From positions 1 through 64,000 of the forward strand of contig NZ_WTEV01000013.1 of assembly GCF_009795885.1 (NCBI RefSeq): 64,000 nucleotides of DNA, written 5' to 3'. This DNA comes from Gilliamella sp. Pas-s25 (GTDB taxonomy: Bacteria; Pseudomonadota; Gammaproteobacteria; Enterobacterales; Orbaceae). Position numbers and translations under genes: made by a program. The notes beneath the pieces are model-generated. The model was not told the origin of the DNA and ran no database searches. It was given only the letters and a program-made list of their open reading frames with translations. Position 1 is the stretch's first letter. Each line of letters starts with the position of its first letter. Below are positions 35,997 through 42,496 of this stretch, one piece after another.

Positions 35997-36028
35997 AATG
36001 TTTCTATTTATTCGAATAAATGACGGCT

Positions 36029-36058
36029 ATTATACCAACCTTTGAATAATAAGACCAA
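36029..36058 (-). promoter_or_regulatory. Extended -10 promoter of parE
   Basis: On the minus strand TTGGTC (36053-36058), an 18-base spacer, then TATAAT (36029-36034) preceded by TGG, an extended -10. About 33 bases upstream of the parE ATG. Confidence 0.65.
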
Positions 36059-36137
36059 GGTCAATGATAAAGGAACTTCATCAAGTAGTGATATCAGCCA
36101 TTAACTAGGTAAGTTAAATAATACGATTTTTTAAGGG

Positions 36138-36149
36138 GTAATTCCTACA
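36138..36149 (-). repeat. Solitary IS481-like outer end (12 bp)
   Basis: Read on the minus strand, TGTAGGAATTAC is identical to the outer 12 bases of the IS remnant at 7249-7260 and matches the first 11 bases of the IS at 63048. No transposase homology adjoins it. Could be a leftover end after deletion or a chance match. Confidence 0.35.
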
Positions 36150-36461
36150 GTGAGATTATTTTATGGCACCTTATAAAGTAGAACTTTACCAAATCTTAAT
36201 CAAAAACTCAGTTTTCATTTAAATTGCTAGTGACTTGTTAACCAACGATTGAAATAGTACCTTATTTTTTTCAAGATATGATATCCAAAATATTTGTAAT
36301 GTGGTTGATAACAATATGAGCATTGTCTATTGCTAATCTAGCTACTTAATCATCGCTCCATTGAATTTTAATTAATTTAATGACAGTTTTCGTTTTTAGT
36401 TTGTTTATTCATCTTTTAGTATTATTATCAACATAATTTCATATCAACATTAGGGAATGAT

Positions 36462-38900
36462 GTGAGTAAATTAAAGAATAAAACAAGCAAATGCGATTTT
36501 TTACAAAAACCGATAACAATTGATGATGTAGCTGCCCTGACTAATAATATACAATTACCTTTTTCCTACGTTGAACCAAGTACTAATGCTAATAATACAA
36601 TTTCAAATCCCACCGATGAAGAAAAAATTGTTTATAGTGCCTGTTTAGTTAACTGTGGTAGCCGCTGTCCTTTAAAAGTTCATGTTAAAAACGATGTTAT
36701 TACTAAAATAGCACCAGAAGATGGGGTAAATGATGCCGTTTTTGGTTTGCACCAAATCCGTCCTTGTCTTCGCGGTCGCGCTGTTCGTTGGCGAACTTAT
36801 GATCCGGATCGTTTAAAATATCCTATGATACGCATTGGTCAACGTGGTGAAGGTAAATTTAAACGTATTTCGTGGAGTGAGGCGATTAATTTACTGGCAG
36901 ATAAATTGAAATATACTATTAATCGGTATGGCAACGAGGCGATTTATTACCAATATGGTTCAGGAACAACCGGTGCTAATCTTTCAGGGCGTAATGCGTG
37001 CCAACGTTTTTTAAGTACAATTGGAGGTTTTTTAAATTATCATGGTGATTATTCAAGTGGACAGATTTCGGCTATTCGACCTTATATTTTTGGTAATGCT
37101 AAGGAATCTTTACTTGATCAAATAAAGCATTCCGATTTAGTTGTGATGTTTGGGCATAATATTGCCGAAACCCGAATGTCAGGTGGAGGGCAAGTTACAG
37201 AGCTTTTTCAGGCATTAGAACAGAGCAAGGCACGGGTGATTATTATTGATCCGCGTCGTAGCGAAAGCGTGGTGGCATATAATGCTGAGTGGATCCCAAT
37301 TGTTCCCGGTACCGATGCTGCATTAGTCGCCGCAATTGGCTATACATTACTTGAGCAAGATCGCATTGATGAAAACATGCTTAATCAATATTGTATCGGT
37401 TGGAGTGCCGATTCCTTGCCTGATAGTGCACCACCTTATAGTGATTATAAATCTTACCTTTTAGGCTTAGGCTATGATAGAACACCTAAAACCCCAGAAT
37501 GGGCAGCTAAAAAAACCGGTATTGCCGCTGCACAAATTCGCTCATTGGCGATGGATATTATTAATGCTAAAGCTGCTTGGATTTCGCAAGGTTATGGTGT
37601 ACAGCGTTGGCAAAATGGTGAACATACCGCTCGCGCTATTATGATTTTACCCATTATAACCGGTCAATTTGGTAAGCCAGGTACCAATATAGGAACGTGG
37701 GGTGGCAGTGTTGTTTATCCAATACCTAGCTTTAAACTTCCCAATCCGATAAAAACGAGTATTCCTTTCTTTTTGTGGACAAAAGCAATTGTAGATGGTC
37801 CAAGTATGACCGCCCAAAATGCTTATCTTAAAGGTAAAGATAAGTTGGATGTTGGTATCAAATTTATCTGGAATTATGCCGGTAATGTAATGGGAAATCA
37901 GCATTCAGACCTCAATTGTACCCATCAGATTTTACAAGATGAGTCTAAATGTGAATTTATTCTTGTTTGGGATACGCATATGACCGCATCAGCCAAATAT
38001 GCCGATTTACTGTTACCCGACGTTTCATCAGTTGAAAATACTGATTTGATTAATAATTCTTATTCATCTGGCGCGTATAGCTACCTTATCCGCATGCAAC
38101 GAGCAATTAAACCACTTTGGGAAAACCGAGCAGCGTATGATGTGTTAACCGAACTTTCCGAGAAAATGGGCGTAAAAGATAAATTTACCGAAGGTCGTAG
38201 TCAAGATGAATGGATAGCGTATTGTTATGAGCAGTTGCGAAAACATGAACCGCATTTACCCCCTTTTGCCAATACTGACGGTATGGGGGTAATCGATCGT
38301 AAACTTGCTGATAGTGATACACAAATTGGATTGAAAGCCTTTAGAGATGATCCAATTAAAAACCCATTAAATACACCATCGGGGAAAATTGAGATCTATT
38401 CTGAAGCGCTAGCTAACATAGCCAATGAATGGGAACTTGATCCAGAAGATATACTCTACCCCATTCCGGCGTATTTACCGGCGATTGAAGGCAGTGAAGA
38501 TAAACCCAAACGCACAAAATACCCACTACAACTGATTGGTTTCCATACCAAAGGGCAATGCCATTCCACTTACAGTAATTTACCGCAATTGCGCGAAGCT
38601 GTCGCTAACAGTATTTGGATTAATCCATTTGATGCCGAGCAAAGACAAATAAAACATGGTCAGTTAGTTGAGGTTTATAACGACCGAGGTCGGCTGTATA
38701 TTCCCGCTAAACTCACACCAAGGATATTACCGGGTGTGATTGCCATTCCGCAAGGGATGTGGGCAAAAACCAATGCGGCAGGGATTGATATTGGCGGTTG
38801 TATTAATCGTTTAACATCATTGCGCCCAACGGTGCTTGCAAAATCGAATCCACAGCATACCAATCTGGTTGAAGTTAAACCATTATCGGTGGTGGATTGA
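36462..38900 (+). CDS. dmsA: DMSO-reductase-type molybdopterin oxidoreductase, catalytic subunit, with damaged Tat motif
   Basis: Closest by eye to E. coli DmsA, the catalytic subunit for dimethyl sulfoxide and N-oxide respiration. It has a [4Fe-4S] motif at Cys61, Cys65, Cys69 and Cys102, a GDYSS molybdenum-ligand region (Ser198/199) and DmsA-like blocks such as MSGGGQVTELF, GKDKLDVGIKFIWNYAGN and HTNLVEVKPL. The start is GTG, with a GGGA upstream. The N-terminus reads SKCDFLQK at residues 9-16 where Tat substrates have SRRxFLxK, and the following stretch carries two Asp instead of a hydrophobic core. Export to the periplasm is therefore doubtful. First gene of dmsA-dmsB-(dmsC stub)-dmsD. 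Confidence 0.9.
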   Translation: MSKLKNKTSKCDFLQKPITIDDVAALTNNIQLPFSYVEPSTNANNTISNPTDEEKIVYSACLVNCGSRCPLKVHVKNDVITKIAPEDGVNDAVFGLHQIRPCLRGRAVRWRTYDPDRLKYPMIRIGQRGEGKFKRISWSEAINLLADKLKYTINRYGNEAIYYQYGSGTTGANLSGRNACQRFLSTIGGFLNYHGDYSSGQISAIRPYIFGNAKESLLDQIKHSDLVVMFGHNIAETRMSGGGQVTELFQALEQSKARVIIIDPRRSESVVAYNAEWIPIVPGTDAALVAAIGYTLLEQDRIDENMLNQYCIGWSADSLPDSAPPYSDYKSYLLGLGYDRTPKTPEWAAKKTGIAAAQIRSLAMDIINAKAAWISQGYGVQRWQNGEHTARAIMILPIITGQFGKPGTNIGTWGGSVVYPIPSFKLPNPIKTSIPFFLWTKAIVDGPSMTAQNAYLKGKDKLDVGIKFIWNYAGNVMGNQHSDLNCTHQILQDESKCEFILVWDTHMTASAKYADLLLPDVSSVENTDLINNSYSSGAYSYLIRMQRAIKPLWENRAAYDVLTELSEKMGVKDKFTEGRSQDEWIAYCYEQLRKHEPHLPPFANTDGMGVIDRKLADSDTQIGLKAFRDDPIKNPLNTPSGKIEIYSEALANIANEWELDPEDILYPIPAYLPAIEGSEDKPKRTKYPLQLIGFHTKGQCHSTYSNLPQLREAVANSIWINPFDAEQRQIKHGQLVEVYNDRGRLYIPAKLTPRILPGVIAIPQGMWAKTNAAGIDIGGCINRLTSLRPTVLAKSNPQHTNLVEVKPLSVVD

Positions 38901-38930
38901 GCTTTATAAATTAAAGAGCGAATAATAAAA

Positions 38931-39545
38931 ATGCAATATGGATTTTATATTGATTCTTCAAAATGTACTGGTTGCAAAACCTGCCAACTCAGTTGTAAAG
39001 ACGAAAAAGATAATGCATTAGGTGTTCATTTTCGTCGTGTTTATGAATATGGAGGGGGTAGTTGGCAGCAAGTTGATGGCCTGTGGCAAAACGATACCTT
39101 TACCTACTATTTATCCATCTCCTGTAACCATTGCCAAGAGCCAGCTTGTGTGCAAGGTTGCCCAACAGGCGCAATGAATAAACGATCACAAGACGGCTTA
39201 GTTGTTGTTAATCAAGATATTTGCATCGGTTGCCGACATTGTGAAACCCATTGCCCTTATGGCGCACCACAATTTGATCATCAAAAAAAGGTCATGTCAA
39301 AATGTGATGGTTGCTATGAACGTGTTGCCGAGGGATTAAAACCTGTTTGTGTTGAATCATGCCCTCAAAGAGCGTTAGATTTTGACGAAATTGAAAAACT
39401 ACGTCAGCACTATGGCGATGAATGTGATATTGCACCACTACCGAGCTCGCAACTGACTAAACCCAATATAGTGATAAAGCCCCATGCACAAGCCAAGGCG
39501 TCTGGCGATACTTTAGGTAAAGTGCTCAATCCTGAGGAGGTATAA
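38931..39545 (+). CDS. dmsB: DMSO reductase iron-sulfur subunit
   Basis: The electron-transfer subunit with four [4Fe-4S] clusters. All four Cys groups are visible: CTGCKTCQLSC, CNHCQEPACVQGCP, CIGCRHCETHCP and CDGCYERVAEGLKPVC followed by CP. 204 residues, like E. coli DmsB. 30 bases after dmsA. Looks intact and under constraint. Confidence 0.95.
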   Translation: MQYGFYIDSSKCTGCKTCQLSCKDEKDNALGVHFRRVYEYGGGSWQQVDGLWQNDTFTYYLSISCNHCQEPACVQGCPTGAMNKRSQDGLVVVNQDICIGCRHCETHCPYGAPQFDHQKKVMSKCDGCYERVAEGLKPVCVESCPQRALDFDEIEKLRQHYGDECDIAPLPSSQLTKPNIVIKPHAQAKASGDTLGKVLNPEEV

Positions 39546-39550
39546 GCAAT

Positions 39551-39614
39551 ATGCGCAACTTACCACTGGTGTTTTTTTACGGTTTTAGAACAGTTAACAA
39601 ATGACATAGTTTTG
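39551..39614 (+). pseudogene. dmsC: dmsC membrane-anchor stub
   Basis: Directly after dmsB an ATG opens a frame MRNLPLVFFYGF that stops after 17 codons. Dropping one T from the seven-T run at 39572-39578 restores LPLVFFTVLEQL, which resembles the beginning of DmsC, the eight-helix quinol-oxidising anchor. The remaining ~260 residues are absent: the next gene's Shine-Dalgarno and start follow at once. So dmsC appears reduced to its first ~20 codons by deletion plus a frameshift. The identification rests on a short match plus gene order. Confidence 0.6.
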
Positions 39615-39626
39615 AGGAGATATTTT

Positions 39627-40184
39627 TTGAATAAAATCGCTTCTATCACATTAGCAAAACTACTTGGTGCTTTTTTTTATTATCCACCCAATAGTAAAGT
39701 GACTGCACCATTAATGCAGGCATTATTACATATTGACCATCTAGCAAAGTGGCCCAATCTCCCCCTTATTTATGAGCAGTGTAATATATTAGCGAATCAA
39801 ATTGGTAATCCCGATCTTGATTATCAATTTTCATTACTATTTGAAGGGCAAGGAACAATGCCAGCACCACCATGGGGTTCATTTTACCTAGATACAGAAC
39901 ACCTATTGTTAGGTGAATCACAAGCATGCTATCACCGATTTTTGCAACAACATGGTTTGACGCTCAATACAGGAATGAACGAACCCGACGATCAATTTGG
40001 GTTAATGCTAATGGCCTATGCCATATTGCTTGAAAATAATAATTATACAGCGGCAAAACAACTTATTGATGAACACTTAATGATTTGGTCTTCAGCTTAT
40101 TTAAAAGAGTTAAAGAACAACAAAATTAGCGCATTTTATCGAGCTTTAGCCGTGATTGCTGAGCAATATTTACAAATGCATTAA
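39627..40184 (+). CDS. dmsD: TorD/DmsD-family redox-enzyme maturation chaperone
   Basis: A cytoplasmic chaperone of the TorD family that binds the DmsA-type signal peptide and apo-enzyme during molybdenum-cofactor insertion. The all-helical 185-residue protein has the YxxLFxGxG-like FSLLFEGQGTMPAPPWGSFY motif and the EPDDQFGLMLMAYAILLE motif typical of the family. The start is taken as TTG 39627, six bases after AGGAGA; an upstream in-frame TTG at 39612 would include the Shine-Dalgarno. Intact, although its presumed client lacks a proper Tat signal. Confidence 0.87.
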   Translation: MNKIASITLAKLLGAFFYYPPNSKVTAPLMQALLHIDHLAKWPNLPLIYEQCNILANQIGNPDLDYQFSLLFEGQGTMPAPPWGSFYLDTEHLLLGESQACYHRFLQQHGLTLNTGMNEPDDQFGLMLMAYAILLENNNYTAAKQLIDEHLMIWSSAYLKELKNNKISAFYRALAVIAEQYLQMH

Positions 40185-40323
40185 TTTGCATATTGCGCAT
40201 ACTTATAGCACAAAAAATGACTCTTTTATTCGGTAATGGGTGATAACTTGCATATCGTAACATTGCAGCTTTTATCGTAATCGGTATAATCCATCCTATG
40301 CTTTTTCAAGGTAAATAATATTG

Positions 40324-41413: not shown

Positions 41414-42496
41414 ATGTACTACTATATCAAGCATCAGAAAACCTATGCATTAAATTTACCCAATAATCCCATTAGACGAGTTTTTACACGAATTTCGATT
41501 ATATCTTCGAAGTTATCTCATAAATTATTATCGAAATTATTCCGAAAAGTCTCGCTGGTGTTGGTATCGTTATTATTGTCGTATTCATGGGGGGGGACAG
41601 CATTACCTGCTAACAGTAGGCGAGTAAGCAATCGGAGTGATGCCATAATACTACCGTCGTTACCATTAGAAGTCATCAAATTCGTAAGGCCAGTTATTAA
41701 ATATGGCACAGACGAGTACGCCGGCCCCGCTGATATATGGAATCCAGATTATGGATTCTTAGTCCAATCAACCAATCCGGCATCATACGCGCTTAATTTT
41801 CCAACTACGGGGGCTGATGGATTATATTTTGATTTAATCATAATCGGAGAAGAAAGCGACTTGACATGGGAGGTGCCACCTAAATATGATGGAATTGCGG
41901 TCACCGTGGCGAGAAGACCAATATTTAATAGCGATGGAGATGCAGAATTTCGCGTTACGCTAAAAGGTCCACATGCAGGAGGATCTCGAATAAACAGCTC
42001 TCATCCTAGTAGCATTACCGCGCCTATCTTACCTCATACCTTTGAATTAGTGGGTAAAAATAGAAGTGGTGAAGAGATCGTAAGATATGGATTTGTGTTA
42101 CAGAAGTGGTTTGTCAACCGTGGACGTAAATTCGATACTTTTCAAAATCAAGAATCTTGGTGTAGTAGTTTGGGTTATCGTATGGTACAGGTTAAGGACC
42201 TAACTAATTCAGCCTGTCGTGGTCCTAGCGCAGGTCTCCATTGCAGAGGGGTTATTAGCGCCACACCACTCTCAACTGGTAATCATTACCAGCGTCAAAT
42301 AGGGGCTGGTTTTGCCGCGGAGTGGGGAGATACGGGGATTTACACCCGCGCGGGCTTTGAGAACCACTTCTACTGGACAAGTGACTCTGCTGGAGGTGAC
42401 TACCAGTTCACTGTGTTCATGGGCGGCGGTTATATTCGTAACCACAGTACTTTGCCGCATAACACTCATTACTATGGGCTTTGCACCACTCCTTAG
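41414..42496 (+). CDS. Exported protein with C-terminal variable lectin-like (FGE/DUF1566-type) domain
   Basis: 360 residues. A basic N-terminal region of about 43 residues precedes a hydrophobic segment (SLVLVSLLLSY), so it is exported or membrane-tethered. The middle is beta-rich. From about residue 235, WFVNRG, a Cys-rich WCSSLGYRMVQVKDLTN, GFAAEWG, FYWTSDSAGG and a C-terminal YYGLC resemble Fib_succ_major/DUF1566 and formylglycine-enzyme-like C-type-lectin folds. The last 180 bases are about 53% GC by hand count, much richer than the gene's start, and C-ending codons dominate (14 of 20 Asn/Asp/His/Tyr/Phe codons). That is a signature seen in DGR variable regions. AGGTGA precedes the ATG. 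Confidence 0.75.
   Translation: MYYYIKHQKTYALNLPNNPIRRVFTRISIISSKLSHKLLSKLFRKVSLVLVSLLLSYSWGGTALPANSRRVSNRSDAIILPSLPLEVIKFVRPVIKYGTDEYAGPADIWNPDYGFLVQSTNPASYALNFPTTGADGLYFDLIIIGEESDLTWEVPPKYDGIAVTVARRPIFNSDGDAEFRVTLKGPHAGGSRINSSHPSSITAPILPHTFELVGKNRSGEEIVRYGFVLQKWFVNRGRKFDTFQNQESWCSSLGYRMVQVKDLTNSACRGPSAGLHCRGVISATPLSTGNHYQRQIGAGFAAEWGDTGIYTRAGFENHFYWTSDSAGGDYQFTVFMGGGYIRNHSTLPHNTHYYGLCTTP

Follow-up and report, generated by a model that had tools for sequence, protein, structure and literature searches.

A DMSO reductase of bumblebee-gut Gilliamella that has probably moved into the cytoplasm

Molybdoenzymes on both sides of the membrane

NarG-like inward-facing enzymes bear leftovers of a Tat leader, and must therefore once have changed sides of the membrane. 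SoeABC likewise faces inward. Ize et al. are said to have described, in 2009, the case of NarG with NarJ, where an enzyme that is not exported carries the remnant of a Tat leader. The literature searched yielded no described side-changing enzyme whose intermediates are still close enough to reveal in which order the steps took place. In its accessible part, PMC10609526 states that NarJ acts on the remnant Tat leader and on a second site, that E. coli DmsAB whose DmsA lacks the signal peptide is less stable, yet soluble and active in the cytoplasm, and that DmsAB is translocated even without DmsC. Engineered cytoplasmic DmsAB and remnant Tat leaders (NarG) are already known from the same text (PMC10609526). 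The available sections of PMC12096835 give methionine sulfoxide and N-oxides as DmsABC substrates, and present BisC as a soluble cytoplasmic Mo-bisMGD biotin/methionine sulfoxide reductase. The nearest printed idea to the one developed here comes from a survey of DmsD, the accessible text of which notes dms operons without dmsC and suggests soluble forms (PMC4464133). The main text of a study of energy metabolism in 95 Gilliamella genomes has no mention of DMSO, sulfoxide or dmsA (PMC11325843), and searches for Gilliamella with DMSO reductase or dimethyl sulfoxide, judged by their listings, returned nothing on these genes.

A few bumblebee-gut bacteria probably offer a rare view of a respiratory enzyme changing sides, with its catalytic part still under selection. 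The stretch analysed (the window, 64,000 nucleotides) comes from Gilliamella sp. Pas-s25 (genome G000, 2.81 Mb in 109 contigs; locus on contig G000:C16). The named relatives, all Gilliamella, are sp. App6-5 (G033), G. bombicola R-53248 (G022), sp. WF3-4 (G017), G. mensalis (G034), sp. App4-10 (G021) and G. bombi (G010). The locus resembles the E. coli DmsABC/DmsD system (TIGR02166, TIGR02951, PF04976) in that DmsA and DmsB score above the NCBIfam cut-offs, with the dmsABCD order and RR leaders in intact relatives. It differs in having no Tat motif, no dmsC, and a DmsB loop changed from YCEMR to HCETH. With NarG/NarJ it shares a Tat-like N-terminus without RR on an apparently non-exported enzyme, and in both cases a chaperone from one and the same superfamily has been kept (PMC10609526, accessible part). 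NarG is old and settled, with an inward anchor, NarI, whereas here the loss lies within one genus and leaves no anchor. Since exporting and non-exporting forms occur in sister species, with DmsA up to 97% identical between Pas-s25 and an intact sister, it can be tested directly in which order the steps came, where the electrons now come from and what has become of the chaperone. The DmsAB described here looks, from its sequence, like a natural and recent case of such a move.

The catalytic gene dmsA (36462..38900, plus strand, GTG start at 36462) encodes a Mo-bisMGD subunit of 812 aa. It belongs to the DmsA/YnfE subfamily (1107 bits on TIGR02166 dmsA_ynfE, cut-off 777.7, aligned over 11-806) and matches the Pfam families Molybdopterin, Molydop_binding and Molybdop_Fe4S4. 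Its motifs CLVNCGSRC at 61 and CLRG at 102 correspond to the FS0 Cys motif, and GDYS at 195 to the Mo-ligand Ser region. On the plus strand there follow dmsB (38931..39545), a four-cluster iron-sulfur subunit of 204 aa (TIGR02951, 252.9 bits, cut-off 214.1) with four Cys groups and 17 Cys conserved as in G. mensalis; a relic of dmsC (39551..39611); and dmsD (39612..40184), retained and open, for the Tat-proofreading and Mo-enzyme chaperone. The product scores 137 bits on the model PRK11621 DmsD, which falls short of the cut-off (162), and matches Pfam Nitrate_red_del, the NarJ/TorD/DmsD-type family (60.3 bits); the start of dmsD is probably the TTG at 39627. The flanking genes we recognized as parC and parE (minus strand, before dmsA) and a ubiA-like gene at 40321. 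The sequence upstream of dmsA (window 36000-36380) is highly variable, and the parE-dmsA gap is about 470 bases here and about 2 kb in G. mensalis and WF3-4. After ubiA comes a stretch that does not align with relatives; it includes a 360-aa ORF (window 41414-42496) without a Pfam match.

Tat leader, membrane anchor and DmsB loop

DmsA residues 9-16 (36486..36509, plus strand) read SKCDFLQK, as the preliminary description had noted, and aligned exported relatives read S/T-R-R-x-F-L-Q-K, so that the RR of a DmsABC leader has become KC. dmsA is present in 34 of 35 Gilliamella genomes, and its N-terminus is readable in 33 (G018, where a contig end cuts the gene, and G024, which has no dmsA, are left out). 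The leader has RR in 29 of these 33, and has lost it in Pas-s25 and App6-5 (both KC), WF3-4 (RY, with TSS where others have DFL) and G. bombicola (QG). RR is found in all 29 dmsC-bearing Gilliamella genomes with a readable N-terminus and in all four dmsA-bearing genomes of the sister genus, so the relatives do not share a non-Tat N-terminus, and the Pas-s25 leader descends from an RR ancestor, as a NarG-type remnant does. Sequencing error was ruled out since both SKCDFL and the dmsC junction recur in App6-5, which was isolated independently. An alternative upstream start was also rejected: the in-frame upstream stretch YYYQHNFISTLGNDV contains no RR. Across the wider set of loci, the RR pattern search missed L131, which has HRRDFLK; it also failed on L134 and L148, where the sequence could not be read through, and its match in L120 falls outside the gene. 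A stop codon lies inside the DmsA leader of L123, from the complete genome of Providencia rettgeri RB151, and is either an error or real.

The preliminary description derived each Arg loss from one transition. This fits the second codon (CGC to TGC). The first-Arg codon is CGN in 34 of the 35 aligned rows other than Pas-s25 and App6-5, CAG in the remaining one (G. bombicola) and AGA in none, so the proposed step from AGA to AAA falls away, and a Lys AAA requires at least two changes. The hydrophobic and cleavage region that follows (PITIDDVAALTNNIQLPFSYVE, 36510..36575, plus strand) holds two Asp at positions that are Gly-Gly or Gly-Ser in relatives; Asp has been gained in the hydrophobic part of the Pas-s25, App6-5 and WF3-4 leaders. 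The best 15-residue Kyte-Doolittle mean outside the RR is 0.80 in Pas-s25 and 0.82 in App6-5, the two lowest of 36 rows. The segment is thus weakened in these two, but G. bombicola (0.98) is just under the intact range of 1.05-1.50 and WF3-4 (1.21) within it, so the loss of hydrophobicity is not general to the four.

The same four genomes have lost dmsC. PF04976 is found in 30 of the 35 Gilliamella genomes and is absent from Pas-s25, WF3-4, G. bombicola and App6-5, all 99-100% complete, and from G024, which is 67% complete. RR is therefore missing from four of four dmsC-less genomes and kept in every dmsC-bearing one with a readable N-terminus (one-sided Fisher 2.4e-5, uncorrected for kinship). 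Intact genomes carry dmsC between dmsB and dmsD; in all four, this gap holds just a short, frame-broken relic of about its first 60 bases. In Pas-s25 the frame breaks after 17 codons, the remaining 0.8 kb or so is deleted, and no DmsC match is left in the genome. Aligned junctions end alike, just before the dmsD start, in Pas-s25, App6-5 and WF3-4, and the G. bombicola remainder is different and longer. No dmsC elsewhere, no NrfD-family substitute and no new gene at the dms locus was found in the four genomes. The earlier reading of a lost Tat motif on an intact catalytic body is supported by the RR ancestor, and the fact that dmsC has disappeared from precisely these genomes supports it more strongly than the motif could by itself; a cytoplasmic location would follow from both. 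Among 394 sampled genomes of the order, DmsB scores above its cut-off in 112, of which 20 have no DmsC. Four of the 20 are the Gilliamella genomes above; the remaining 16 all belong to a single further family (f6), which looks like Shewanella. Like the operons of the DmsD survey (PMC4464133, accessible part), the f6 genomes retain dmsAB without dmsC, and their DmsB loop differs too. Unlike the Gilliamella four, the one f6 DmsA read (G073) keeps RR, in LTRRGFIKL, so it should be exported.

DmsB has changed as well. Its loop, CxGCRYCEMRCPYGAP in relatives and CxGCR[HNR]CETHCPYGAP in the four, lies between Cys of the third group (C98-C101-C104) and beside [4Fe-4S] ligands; this group would form the cluster that takes up electrons from menaquinol on DmsC (Cys102 in DmsB of E. 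coli). In PsrC, the quinone site is close to a PsrB cluster, according to the available part of PMC8076601. Residues 103-107 read HCETH in Pas-s25 (39237..39251, plus strand) and YCEMR in relatives. Tyr103 is replaced by His in Pas-s25 and App6-5, Asn in WF3-4 and Arg in G. bombicola, while Met106 has become Thr and Arg107 His in all four. These are three columns altered in all four and invariant in the 32 others. With G004, G004b and G018 left out, 3999 of 4000 random quartets had no such column and one had one, and six close-kin quartets had at most one. Over 63 loci (61 named and two more), 58 read RYCEMR or RYCELR; the five exceptions are three named dmsC-less Gilliamella, the truncated contig L147, and G073 (f6, without dmsC), which reads RRCAKN. 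In 22 further DmsB from the 16 dmsC-less f6 genomes, neither Tyr103 nor Met106 occurs (0/22 each). An exclusive signature of DmsC was ruled out by 38 dmsC-bearing DmsB drawn from 65 genomes outside both families, of which 27 have Tyr, 9 His, 1 Ser and 1 Leu at position 103, while at position 106 there are 28 with Met, 9 with Asn and 1 with Trp. The loop pattern missed all 22 f6 sequences and 7 of the 38 others; these were inspected directly, and the counts combine both. Across the DmsB compared here, the YCEMR loop is the usual form in partners of DmsC without being peculiar to them. Finally, Tyr746 of DmsA (codon 38697..38699, plus strand), invariant in 32 intact sequences, is Ser in App6-5, His in WF3-4 and Cys in G. 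bombicola; Pas-s25 retains Tyr, which fits its recently exchanged enzyme body. As the alignments indicate, leader loss is one part of a coupled change that involves leader, dmsC, DmsB loop and DmsA Tyr746. The stretch treated in the preliminary description spans just one of these changes; the loss of dmsC, the DmsB changes and the recombination were not seen there.

Selection and cellular location

Loss of the whole Tat system was ruled out. TatC is present in 42 of 44 genomes of the family, including all four without the RR, and in each of six genomes tested the sole other PF00384 match is a formate dehydrogenase (identified from its sequence) whose leader reads FNRRQFFK (Pas-s25, WF3-4, G. 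bombicola, App6-5, G. mensalis and App4-10). Retention of MobA was dropped as proof of an active DmsA, since the formate dehydrogenase of the same genomes needs the cofactor too. When the four genomes are compared with one another (six pairs), the dmsA body gives a dN/dS of 0.060-0.081; the median of 238 intact pairs is 0.058 (range 0.033-0.110). For dmsB the ratio is 0.043-0.115 against 0.010-0.088 in 146 intact pairs (0.077 against a median of 0.052), and for dmsD 0.164-0.264 in 5 pairs against 0.059-0.254 in 56 intact pairs (0.224 against a median of 0.162); pairs with dS outside 0.15-1.5 are left out of the medians. The check thus indicates purifying selection on all three genes, with strong constraint and perhaps slight relaxation in dmsB and dmsD. 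DmsA and DmsB are open and keep their catalytic and cluster residues at a dN/dS of about 0.07; they are therefore not decaying, and the catalytic body is as intact as first described.

We think it likely, from these comparisons, that a DmsABC-type S-/N-oxide reductase has left the periplasmic face of the membrane for the cytoplasm, as a soluble DmsAB matured by DmsD on the remnant leader. With the quinol-oxidising anchor DmsC deleted and the Tat leader of DmsA degraded, DmsAB would stay cytoplasmic and soluble. DmsD would still bind the remnant leader and a second DmsA site and insert Fe-S and Mo-bisMGD, in the way that NarJ serves NarG, and the retention of dmsD fits such a maturation. A soluble donor, in place of menaquinol on DmsC, would feed electrons into the altered cluster of DmsB, and DmsAB would reduce a sulfoxide or N-oxide (e.g., methionine sulfoxide) in the cytosol; no gene for a soluble donor was identified. 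The substrates are likely those of DmsABC. Because DmsAB is translocated even without DmsC, loss of dmsC alone would leave an exported enzyme with no quinol link, so for the function of the enzyme it is reasonable that leader and anchor went together. The proposed mode of working would resemble that of BisC as the available text has it (PMC12096835), though BisC is a single-subunit enzyme of another subfamily, and DmsA falls outside bisC_fam (392.4 bits, cut-off 1017.55). Automatic annotation would name a DMSO respiratory reductase of bee-gut symbionts, for an enzyme that probably no longer respires.

The same losses could reflect decay of an unused respiratory system, with dmsA, dmsB and dmsD on their way to becoming pseudogenes. 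dmsC is a pseudogene in all four, dN/dS of dmsB and dmsD is slightly raised, and G024 has neither dmsA nor dmsC, though it is just 67% complete. Decay is nevertheless unlikely: dmsA is open over its full length in all four, and between App6-5 and WF3-4 its body has accumulated about 243 synonymous and 103 amino-acid changes (dN/dS 0.076) with the catalytic residues kept. The mutational process that turned dmsC into junk has left the adjoining dmsA, dmsB and dmsD open.

DmsAB might instead be cytoplasmic but held at the membrane by another anchor, facing inward as NarGHI or SoeABC do. NarGHI is an inward-facing complex of the same superfamily (PMC10609526, accessible part), SoeABC is counted among the NrfD-type complexes in the available part of PMC8076601, and the identical alteration of DmsB Met106 and Arg107 in all four is not mere drift. 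Set against this, there is no second DmsC or NrfD-family protein in the four genomes and no new gene at the locus, which makes such an anchor quite improbable and leaves room for one that is small or unrelated. Hardly to be expected is residual export, either through a degraded leader still weakly functional for Tat or by DmsAB being carried by another Tat protein. One Arg is left in WF3-4 and most of the hydrophobic stretch in G. bombicola, but RR has gone from two separate leaders, three of the four leaders (Pas-s25, App6-5 and WF3-4) now have Asp within their hydrophobic part, and no dmsC remains to pass electrons outside.

Recombination and the order of events

The Pas-s25 locus is a mosaic. 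Over 36640-39170 it is 99.3% identical to the exporting G. mensalis, while rpoB and gyrB together are just 96.6% identical. Two tracts on the plus strand depart from this: one over 36384..36611, 97.8% identical to App6-5 and 78.8% to G. mensalis, holds the leader, and one over 39185..39642 (3' part of dmsB, dmsC relic, dmsD start), like App6-5 at most sites where Pas-s25 and G. mensalis differ, holds the DmsB loop and the dmsC junction. Pas-s25 may have received the two loss-bearing tracts, or it may have kept its own tracts while the enzyme body was replaced from a donor like G. mensalis, or G. mensalis may have regained the intact state.

In the tree of the leader tract, Pas-s25, App6-5 and WF3-4 form one clade (bootstrap 100) and G. 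bombicola groups with G028 (85), so the leader was lost at least twice. The phylogeny of this tract, together with the dmsC relics, gives two separate signal losses. G. bombicola groups with G009, G019, G027 and G028 over 37300-38490 (bootstrap 100) and 39262-39545 (100), and with App6-5 over 38500-39260 only (95), a tract that ends just past DmsB codon 107. From this switch of clades it probably acquired the altered DmsB loop, with the losses of leader and dmsC taking place in its native sequence; the loop seems to be of single origin and to have entered G. bombicola on a recombinant tract. Four independent losses were ruled out; the signal was instead lost twice and DmsB probably changed a single time, as the DmsB codons ACC-CAY are identical and Pas-s25, App6-5 and WF3-4 share a signal clade and similar dmsC break-points.

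The recombination pattern of G. bombicola suggests that the DmsB change came first, rendering export and DmsC dispensable. That the two loss-bearing tracts of Pas-s25 lie apart inside an enzyme whose remainder was exchanged with an exporting species suggests selection for a match between leader state, DmsB loop and DmsC state. A coordinated switch of sides led by the iron-sulfur subunit can be tentatively proposed, in which a DmsB variant whose electron-entry loop had been rebuilt had a single origin and spread among bumblebee Gilliamella species on short recombinant tracts, each recipient then losing the Tat leader and the DmsC anchor. If true, the switch led by DmsB would be a naturally occurring intermediate on the evolutionary path by which outward molybdoenzymes become inward ones.

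Duplicated dms genes occur elsewhere in the family. Orbaceae bacterium ESL0721 (G004) has a first dmsABC copy in which dmsB/dmsC is frame-broken and a second with stops in dmsA (L082, G004:C2:29702-38287, and L075, G004:C4). In a sister-genus genome, one locus (L079, G042:C1:607499-622279) contains two dmsA, with RR in both.
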